Below are positions 43,350-46,131 of a DNA stretch of 64,000 nt, piece after piece (the stretch's first letter is position 1; each line of letters begins with the position of its first letter). Location of the stretch: contig JAQZBQ010000002.1 in assembly GCA_029237825.1 (NCBI GenBank), forward strand, positions 186,001-250,000. The letters run 5' to 3'. The notes beneath the pieces are model-generated. The model saw only the letters and a list, made by a program, of their open reading frames with translations, made no database searches and had not been told where the DNA came from. The translations under genes and the position numbers were made by a program. Source of the DNA: Bacteroidota bacterium (GTDB lineage: Bacteria; Bacteroidota; Bacteroidia; B-17B0; Aurantibacillaceae).

Positions 43350-43436
43350 ATAGGAATGAAAATGCAAATATACCGTTCTTTTAAAACTTAACCTAAAAAA
43401 AATACCATTTGATAATCAATTAGTTAATTAGTTTTT

Positions 43437-43461
43437 TAGTACTATGTCTTGCATGGTACTA
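43437..43461. promoter_or_regulatory. Palindromic operator upstream of the PadR operon
   Basis: TAGTACTATG - TCTTG - CATGGTACTA: 10-base arms, 9 of 10 paired, 5-base centre. ATG...CAT inner spacing resembles PadR-type operators. It covers the -33 box of the promoter below. A possible half-site TAGTACT recurs at 43505-43511. Probable site of autorepression by the PadR gene. Confidence 0.7.
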
Positions 43462-43480
43462 TTTAATTATCATATCTTTG
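43449..43480 (+). promoter_or_regulatory. Bacteroidota-type promoter for the TonB-C/PadR/PspC operon
   Basis: -33 TTG at 43449-43451, 21-base spacer and -7 TATCTTTG (TAnnTTTG) at 43473-43480. Transcription would start near 43487, leaving about 150 bases of leader before the first ATG. Confidence 0.65.
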
Positions 43481-43638
43481 CTTTGCCCAATAATAAAGTT
43501 GGCCTAGTACTTTAAAAATCATTCTTTTTCTTTTATCTGCAGAATAATTTGAAAAAACATTCGCCTTTCCTGATAAAAACGCGATTTAGCTTGAAGGATG
43601 AATGAGACTTAAAAGTAAAACCATTAATACTAAAAAAA

Positions 43639-43989
43639 ATGAAAAATTTATTAAATAAATCGTTGTTCGCAATTGGCGCAGGATTGTTGTTGAGTTATAA
43701 TTCGATAGCTCATAACTTTGAAGCGCCTACAAAGGTTTCATTATCCGAAACGAGCAAATTCATCAGCGAGCAAATTAAATTTCCAACACCAATCCTCCAA
43801 ACCGGTGAAACAGAGAAAGTAAATGTTGTTTTTACTGTGAATGAACTAGGGGAGGTGAATTTAGTTGTTGCGAACACCGGGAATAAATTACTTAAAAAAT
43901 CAATAGAATCTCAGTTTATGAAGTTGAAACTTAATCACTTGATAGCTGACAATGCCTACAGTGTAGTTTTTAATTTTAAAACAGTTTAA
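43639..43989 (+). CDS. Small exported protein with TonB-C-like domain
   Basis: 116 residues. Signal peptide about 1-24 (ending SIAH). The mature part is one compact domain with KVNVVFTVNELGEVNLVVAN followed by a short helix KKSIESQFMKLKL and a final strand YSVVFNFKTV, the strand-helix-strand order of the TonB C-terminal fold. No membrane anchor or TonB proline region, so it is not TonB itself. It is the first gene of the PadR/PspC operon (2 bases before padR) and so probably belongs to the same envelope-stress response. Function unknown. Confidence 0.68.
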   Translation: MKNLLNKSLFAIGAGLLLSYNSIAHNFEAPTKVSLSETSKFISEQIKFPTPILQTGETEKVNVVFTVNELGEVNLVVANTGNKLLKKSIESQFMKLKLNHLIADNAYSVVFNFKTV

Positions 43990-43991
43990 TC

Positions 43992-44327
43992 ATGGTAAAT
44001 TCAGAGAACACAAAAGCCCAAATGCGAAAAGGTGTTCTGGAACTCTGCATACTTTCTATTCTTTCTCAGGGCGATGCCTATCCTACCGAGATCATTGAGA
44101 AATTAAAAGAAACAAAGTTAGTAGTAGTTGAAGGAACGCTTTACCCGCTTTTAACACGTTTAAAAAACACAGGATTACTTTCTTACAGATGGGAAGAAAG
44201 CACTTCAGGTCCGCCACGGAAATACTACATGCTTACAGAAATAGGGATTACCTATTTAAAGGAGTTACACCTTTCATGGTTCGAGTTGGTGGATGCAGTA
44301 AATAAAACTATTAACAAACAAGATTAA
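43992..44327 (+). CDS. PadR family transcriptional regulator
   Basis: 111 residues. Winged-helix domain with the PadR signature QMRKGVLELCILSILSQGDAYPTEI, VVEGTLYPLLTRLKNTGLLSY and the wing GPPRKYYMLTEIG. A short C-terminal helix provides dimerisation. It belongs to the small PadR-s2 subgroup. It lies 2 bases after the TonB-C-like gene and 10 before the PspC gene; the palindrome at 43437 is a likely autoregulatory site. Effector unknown. Confidence 0.95.
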   Translation: MVNSENTKAQMRKGVLELCILSILSQGDAYPTEIIEKLKETKLVVVEGTLYPLLTRLKNTGLLSYRWEESTSGPPRKYYMLTEIGITYLKELHLSWFELVDAVNKTINKQD

Positions 44328-44337
44328 ACAAAAGGTT

Positions 44338-46131
44338 ATGAATAAAACAGTGACTATAAATATAAGTGGCATTATTTTTCATATTGAGGAAGATGCCTTT
44401 GAAAAGCTCAGTAAATACTTGAATACCATTAAAGGCTACTTTAGCAACGCTGACGGGGGCACCGAAATCATGAGTGACATTGAAGCCAGAATTGCCGAGA
44501 TGCTGCAAAGTAAAACAAGCTCCGTGAAGCAAGTCGTATTAATGAGTGATGTGGATTTCGTAATGGATTCGATGGGTAAGCCCGAAGAGTTCGCTGACGA
44601 AGCTTCTGAATTTTCGGAAAGTTACCATTATACCGAAAATTCAAACAATGTAAAAAAACGACTTTACCGCGACGGGGATAGTAAAGTTTTAGGCGGTGTA
44701 TGCGCAGGTATCGGGCATTATTTTGGAATTGACCCCGTGTGGTTACGAATTGGTTTATTACTGATGTTCTTTTTTGGCGGAACTGGTTTACTGTTATATA
44801 TTATATTATGGATAGCGATCCCGGAAGCAAAAACAACTACCGAGCGTTTGGCAATGAAGGGTGAAAAAGCGGATATCAATAACATATCGCGGGCAGTTAA
44901 GGAAGAGGCCGAGCAATTAAAAAGGCGCATGGAGAAATACGGAAAAGAGTTTAAGAATATGGCTTCTAATAACCGTGATCTTCCACGAAACACAATTGAA
45001 AAACTGGTTGATTTCACAGGCGATGTTCTGGTAAACATTGGCCGGGTATTATTAAAAATCATCGGAGTGTGTATGGTCATTTTTGGTGTTATCTTTTTCC
45101 TCGGGTTGTTTGGTTCGGTGTTTGGGATGTCGTTTATGACTAGTAATGTCGAGGTTCAGGAATGGATTGACATGGTTCTGTTAAACGGCAAAGATTTTTA
45201 TTTAGGGTTGCTCGGGATTTCTCTCTTTTTTGGGGTTCCTATCATGATGATCATTTATGGCGGTATCAAAATTTTATTCAGGCTGAAATATTCTAACCGC
45301 TGGGTTAATTTAAGTGCAGGGATTTTTTGGCTAGTGGGATTTGCGCTGTGCTTATATGTTGGAATAAGAACTGGTGCAGATTTCAGTAAAGAAGCTAAGG
45401 TTAGGGAAAAAATAGAGGTAAAGGCCTATGATACACTTATTCTAAAACTTAACCAGGTTCCCATGAATCTCTCCGAAGTTCATGCCAGCACAGAAGATGA
45501 ATACGATGATGACGAGGTTTTTAAGATTAACAAACACAATCATGATGATTATATGATTGGTAAACATGATGGGAAAAGGTATCTTTTAGGCCACGCGACT
45601 CTCAATATCATTAGGTCCCAGAGCGACCGAATTGAAATGCTCATTGTTAAAGAATCTAAGGGGAATAACAAATCAGCCGCTTCAGAAAGAGCTAAAAATA
45701 TTCTTTATAATGTGACTCAAACAGATAGTGTAATACTTTTTGATAACCTTTTTAAAGCTGGAAACGCTGATAAATTCAGGGCACAGGGTGTTTCTGTAAT
45801 ATTAAAGTTGCCACTCAATAAGGTGATTTATCTCGACAAGTCGTTGTCAGGCTTTATTTATGATATCGAGAATACAACGAATACGTATGATGGTGACATG
45901 GTTAACAGACGATGGATGATGACAGAATATGGCTTAAAGTGTATTGATTGCGACGGATTAAGTATTAATAGCAATGGACTTGGCGCACCTGTTCACCCGG
46001 CACCTCCTGCACATCCTGAACCACCAGCACATCCTCAAATTGTTCATATCCAAGAAAGTAATAATAAGGATACAAAAGTTACAATTGATAAACACGGTGT
46101 GCATGTAGAAACAGGAAAAAAGCGCGACTAG
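44338..46131 (+). CDS. PspC-domain membrane protein
   Basis: 597 residues. Residues 1-95 are an alpha/beta domain with SDIEARIAEML common to Bacteroidota PspC proteins. Residues 107-165 are the PspC domain (RLYRDGDSKVLGGVCAGIGHYFGIDPVWLRIG compressed; two half-helices ending IILWIAIPE). Three further membrane helices lie at about 240-265, 287-310 and 325-345, and a beta-rich outer segment to the end has a Pro/His-rich linker (HPAPPAHPEPPAHP) near residue 560. With PadR upstream this is a likely envelope-stress sensor/effector. A strong terminator follows. Confidence 0.9.
   Translation: MNKTVTINISGIIFHIEEDAFEKLSKYLNTIKGYFSNADGGTEIMSDIEARIAEMLQSKTSSVKQVVLMSDVDFVMDSMGKPEEFADEASEFSESYHYTENSNNVKKRLYRDGDSKVLGGVCAGIGHYFGIDPVWLRIGLLLMFFFGGTGLLLYIILWIAIPEAKTTTERLAMKGEKADINNISRAVKEEAEQLKRRMEKYGKEFKNMASNNRDLPRNTIEKLVDFTGDVLVNIGRVLLKIIGVCMVIFGVIFFLGLFGSVFGMSFMTSNVEVQEWIDMVLLNGKDFYLGLLGISLFFGVPIMMIIYGGIKILFRLKYSNRWVNLSAGIFWLVGFALCLYVGIRTGADFSKEAKVREKIEVKAYDTLILKLNQVPMNLSEVHASTEDEYDDDEVFKINKHNHDDYMIGKHDGKRYLLGHATLNIIRSQSDRIEMLIVKESKGNNKSAASERAKNILYNVTQTDSVILFDNLFKAGNADKFRAQGVSVILKLPLNKVIYLDKSLSGFIYDIENTTNTYDGDMVNRRWMMTEYGLKCIDCDGLSINSNGLGAPVHPAPPAHPEPPAHPQIVHIQESNNKDTKVTIDKHGVHVETGKKRD

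Follow-up and report, generated by a model that had tools for sequence, protein, structure and literature searches.

A candidate PadR operator over the -33 box of a PspC operon promoter in Bacteroidota

The stretch of DNA analysed here (the window, 64,000 nucleotides from a Bacteroidota bacterium) carries on its forward strand the genes ORF1, padR, and pspC, which the promoter described below is predicted to drive in that order. ORF1 (43639..43989) encodes a probably exported protein of 116 aa with a TonB/TolA C-terminal-domain-like model; the top PDB hits all belong to this type, but with E values of 0.0065 and above. Among the fetched loci compared, ORF1 was not found in all relatives. An exported TonB/TolA-like protein is an unexpected opening gene for a PspC operon. 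The second gene, as an earlier note on this DNA had placed it, is padR (43992..44327), which encodes a 111-aa, PadR-2-sized putative repressor. The third, pspC (44338..46131), encodes a 597-aa membrane protein with a HAAS-like region followed by PspC, LiaI-LiaF-TM, and Toast-rack domains, the latter three all above cut-off.

The PadR winged helix-turn-helix (wHTH) domain matched PF03551 with an E value of 8.8e-19 (67.7 bits against a cut-off of 27). Its best solved relative was PDB 5h20 (E 1.3e-38 over 108 residues), which we take to be BF2549 of Bacteroides fragilis, a putative PadR-family regulator. Ten residues (Q10, K13, Y30, E47, G48, Y51, R56, Y65, R76, and K77) were invariant in 143 distinct padR sequences, so that both DNA-contacting signature tyrosines of the PadR family, Y30 and Y51, were present in 143/143. 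According to the accessible text of PMC6457526, members of the PadR-2 subfamily have about 110 residues and no long C-terminal domain, a size that the window's protein fits, and in LftR roles are given for two tyrosines and for a lysine outside the wHTH motif. We mapped Y30, Y51, and K13 onto the LftR residues by eye, with the tyrosines corresponding to Y28/Y48.

Upstream of ORF1 lies a 25-base dyad, the candidate primary operator O1 (43437..43461, no strand assigned), which reads TAGTACTATG-N5-CATGGTACTA. Its arms are complementary at 9 of 10 positions, and its spacer, TCTTG, occupies 43447-43451. The TTG within that spacer (43449..43451, forward strand) lies at the dyad centre and forms, with the -7 box TATCTTTG (43473..43480, forward strand), a promoter of the form TTG-N21-TATCTTTG. 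In Bacteroidota sigma-A promoters, about 17-23 bp separate a TTG -33 box from the TAnnTTTG downstream of it, and both boxes and their distance here are of this type. In the Flavobacterium psychrophilum start-site map, as far as the available part of PMC9723704 presents it, the TAnnTTTG consensus lies at -12 to -5; the transcription start is therefore predicted at 43485 on the forward strand, close to the 43487 given previously. The palindrome on the -33 TTG was exactly as the earlier note had described it.

As a bare inverted repeat, O1 is unremarkable: the window holds 11 inverted repeats with 10-base arms, a 5-base spacer, and at least 9/10 pairing, against 4.1 expected from 30 order-1 simulations, and symmetry alone is no ground for calling an operator. 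The significance of O1 comes instead from its position and conservation. In 100 dinucleotide-shuffled versions of the window the 25-mer pattern never occurred, and a scan of the 3.55-Mb genome, which the earlier note had proposed, located it at one place with up to 3 mismatches allowed.

To assess conservation, we fetched the loci of 90 of 98 padR-bearing relatives and scanned within 1 kb upstream for O1-like sites, defined by at most 5 mismatches to TAGTACTATG-N5-CATAGTACTA; the -7 box played no part in site choice. Such a site was present at 82/90 padR loci, with at most 3 mismatches in 67/82, although related sequences in this comparison are not independent samples and one locus (L001) duplicates another (L002). 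TAnnTTTG began at position 35-38 from the first site base in 82/82 loci and at position 37 in 74/82, compared to 1/1476 positions in a 25-base control stretch upstream. The dyad spacer read NNTTG in 57/82 loci and its mirror, CAANN, in 1/82, with the exact TTG-N21-TAnnTTTG in 53 of the 57. This is the pattern expected of a -33 box within the dyad: the protein site is symmetric, but its centre points one way. The 25/82 sites that have no TTG at the dyad centre count against the circuit proposed below.

Matches to padR and then pspC followed one another in 90/90 fetched loci. Where ORF1 was absent the site lay beside padR, usually 44-146 bp before it. We observed the same arrangement at named Flavobacterium, Lutibacter, Marinifilum, Labilibaculum, and Thermophagus loci, with more mismatches (3-6) in the Flavobacterium sites. 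The promoter alignment omitted the 8/90 loci with more than 5 mismatches. Four of these (L019, L023, L041, and L044) had fewer than 520 bases of upstream sequence, and in L045 the site lies about 1.05 kb upstream, beyond the scan range. The genome of L051 has a profile match at the edge of another contig, that of L076 a weaker profile match before padR, and that of L091 a diverged dyad plus a -7 box. Besides the window, alignment A1 holds 48/77 N-termini, A2 27/28 ORF1 rows, and A3 55/62 relative rows.

The site also tracked padR across genomes. Among 120 relatives, with the window's own genome counted in, 103 had a padR match at E<=0.001; 98 carried a padR orthologue (E <1e-30) and 22 did not. 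Scanning for the pattern with as many as 3 mismatches allowed returned 74 sites in 72/120 genomes and 0 in the 22 padR-less genomes, while a reversed control pattern gave 28 matches in 27 genomes of the same set. Most of the sites (69/74) lay no more than 1.1 kb upstream of padR; 2/74 were near contig ends, with padR there likewise near a contig end, and 3/74 were elsewhere. We then used R1, a sequence-only profile of operator plus promoter (46 positions) built from padR promoters, some of which came from the species tested. At E<=1e-3, R1 detected a site in 92/98 padR genomes versus 0/22 padR-less genomes, and at E<=0.01 in 93/98 versus 4/22. In a phylum-wide draw, which shares some genomes with the set of 120, padR was present at E<=1e-20 in 46/198 genomes, and R1 sites (E<=1e-3) occurred in 38/46 of these versus 0/152 others. 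Six of the 8 misses have a dyad with 3 (G240, G401), 4 (G086), 6 (G143, G295), or 8 (G210) mismatches. In the other two, G179 and G465 (family f15), padR is present and no recognisable dyad was found, which counts against the proposed circuit. The operator, promoter boxes, fixed spacing, co-occurrence with padR, and domain make-up are directly visible in the sequences, and O1 is very probably the binding site of the operon's own PadR repressor.

A degenerate second operator, O2 (43488..43512, no strand assigned), was detected at predicted positions +4 to +28 in the window; its right half holds TAGTACT (43505-43511). At +51 bp, the right half scored a mean of 7.08/10 in the window's family, versus 3.09 (sd 0.93) over all offsets, +51 included, and it reached at least 8/10 at +51 in 20/50 family loci versus 1/32 others. 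By these scores the putative O2, with its 51-bp spacing, is conserved only within the window's family. The TAGTACT that the earlier note had listed as a downstream half-site is real and conserved, but belongs to this degenerate operator and is a family-level feature only. Upstream of O1, an element ATAATCAATTAGTTA (consensus ATTATCAnnnAnTTA; 43412..43426, forward strand) carries TCA at a fixed offset from the operator, found in 22/50 family loci and 14/32 others (36/82) and seen with or without TerC next door. A general role of TCA in promoters was considered and rejected: 62 other TTG-N19-22-TAnnTTTG candidates, drawn from the window and the fetched loci, showed no peak at that offset.

The divergent gene TerC was considered as a target of O1 and set aside, as it has its own TATATTTG box (43372-43365) and went undetected near the majority of sites in other families. 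Given that box, the dyad would lie about 77-101 bp upstream of the predicted TerC start and may be an upstream influence on TerC. The TerC reading frame has a TTG start at 43367 inside the TATATTTG box, and ATG 43349 is the likelier start.

Within its own genome, O1 was the best R1 match (E 5.5e-12) and the next scored 0.003, leaving one strong site. The runner-up (G000:C6:73545) is a similar dyad, ACTTTGTATTACAAAGT, that precedes a pair of small membrane genes, and was clear in 7/8 loci with homologues, its own included. It has no -7 box at the usual distance and looks like another regulator's operator rather than a second PadR site, although the case is ambiguous. At L182:2043-2067 (G000:C6), L186, and L188-L192, the dyad ACTTTG-N5-CAAAGT precedes genes for 108-aa membrane proteins. 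It differs from the PadR operator by one base per half and may serve a different winged-helix regulator as operator. The pattern sites G015:C54 and G047:C4 were dismissed as chance matches, with the -7 box missing at the usual distance or the site within a reading frame.

Some other lineages appear to have additional targets, with gene names assigned by eye from sequence. In G116, a gene for a small secreted-looking protein has the operator upstream, together with a -7-like box at roughly the normal spacing. The same combination lies before an outer-membrane-barrel-like gene in G093 and G373 (two species of the same genus), before a gene for a GLPGLI-like protein in G093, and before small-protein genes in G461, G094, and G198, where the boxes of G094 and G198 deviate from TAnnTTTG. 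Neither R1 match of G461 is at padR; its padR is preceded by a 6-mismatch dyad plus a -7 box. Operator-promoter units of this extra type, in front of secreted, GLPGLI-like, or outer-membrane-barrel-like genes of other families, lie at L177:1458, L178:1314, L179:4522, L180:3954, L202, L203, and L204.

We considered whether the dyad serves something other than repression by PadR. A different DNA-binding protein, encoded elsewhere, might use it while the target of PadR lies at another place, and dyads such as ACTTTGTATTACAAAGT before small membrane genes indicate that other wHTH regulators may use similar sequences. We regard this as unlikely, since 318 genome scans (overlapping sets) yielded no padR-less genome with a site at E<=1e-3, and the site remains with padR where the first gene is missing. 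Less probable again is that PadR on the dyad acts as an activator, or alternately as repressor and activator. The conserved upstream element at 43412-43426 could belong to an activator arrangement, yet the dyad lies on the -33 box itself, the classical repressor position, and LftR, LltR, and LstR, which are characterised PadR proteins with autoregulation, act as repressors, according to the portion of PMC6624303 available. That the dyad is an accidental inverted repeat, or an RNA hairpin without a regulatory role, would be in keeping with the 11 comparable repeats in the window, but it is hardly credible when arms and spacing are conserved over many families. A hairpin would moreover need the dyad to be transcribed, whereas the dyad is absent from the predicted RNA because it lies upstream of the predicted start.

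The N-terminal 110 residues of the pspC product resemble HAAS: 44/49 sequences matched PF22564 at E<=1 (best 2.9e-9), with the window's protein at 0.0032, below Pfam's curated cut-off. The GxP motif, which kinks the third helix in HAAS, is present in 74/77 N-termini. The predicted HAAS-like fold has a mean pLDDT of 81 and a helix broken at GKP, residues 80-81; a structure search of this model against the PDB returned no clear match, with Z up to 6.7, within the tool's stated noise. The sub-threshold HAAS score of the window's protein and the structure search both count against the circuit proposed below. Judged from its sequence, the operon nevertheless appears to be a Bacteroidota HAAS-PadR envelope-stress module. 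This module identity, O2, and the extra targets in some other lineages are additions to the earlier note.

We propose that a PadR dimer binds the 25-bp dyad and covers approximately -48 to -24, where it would keep sigma off the -33 box of the ORF1-padR-pspC promoter. Since padR lies inside the repressed operon, repression would be autogenous. Under envelope stress, the PspC/Toast-rack membrane protein would use its cytoplasmic HAAS-like domain to relieve PadR, and the operon would be induced and then switch itself off again. We infer PadR as the binder, repression as the outcome, and a HAAS-to-PadR signal; that signal is the weakest step of the proposed circuit. The autoregulation suggested by the earlier note is supported at sequence level by a dyad on the -33 box, a -7 box at 21 bp, and padR in the operon, and it also fits a site that tracks padR despite changes in gene order and a genome with no second strong site. 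We put the probability of this reading, with PadR on the dyad over the -33 region, a self-repressing operon, and HAAS relief under envelope stress, at roughly 0.87.

A wider scheme is tentative, and we give it somewhat less than an even chance. Here, a one-operator envelope-stress switch would operate across much of the class in place of a two-component system, with HAAS pulling PadR off a single -33 dyad. Small lineage-specific regulons of secreted, GLPGLI-like, and outer-membrane-barrel-like genes would be added to it, and the window's family would have two operators 51 bp apart, bracketing the -7 box and start.

A literature search, mostly outside subscription journals, found no Bacteroidota operator of these letters or account of its reach, and nothing relevant on BF2549/5H20. 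The HAAS-PadR-like wHTH system was put forward in 2024 from gene neighbourhoods, with the HAAS of a membrane protein altering the state of PadR as the suggested signal path (available text of PMC11237479). That text gives no operator, whereas the window's locus has a candidate one. With the operator and the geometry of its promoter specified, a regulon of almost one target, and hosts in culture (Flavobacterium, Lutibacter, Marinifilum), HAAS control of PadR is testable at one promoter. Searches for envelope genes under PadR control in Bacteroidia can also use the operator as a DNA signature.

Circuits of this kind are already known, as autorepressed PadR operons. LftR and LmrR resemble the window's PadR as PadR-2 proteins, wHTH dimers of about 110 residues with conserved tyrosines, and the DNA they bind, at their own promoters or those of their targets, is partly palindromic; unlike it, they regulate drug transporters and are responsive to small planar compounds (accessible parts of PMC6457526 and PMC4235314). 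A parallel in design is the lltR operon of Listeria monocytogenes (lmo0599-lmo0601), where, in the text of PMC6624303 open to us, a PadR repressor heads the operon and represses its own genes, so that for LltR, autorepression of a PadR operon that includes DUF1700 has been measured. Like the window's operon, it combines PadR with a membrane protein of the DUF1700 (HAAS) type, along with a DUF4097 protein, but its promoter is a Firmicute one and its domains are divided between two proteins.
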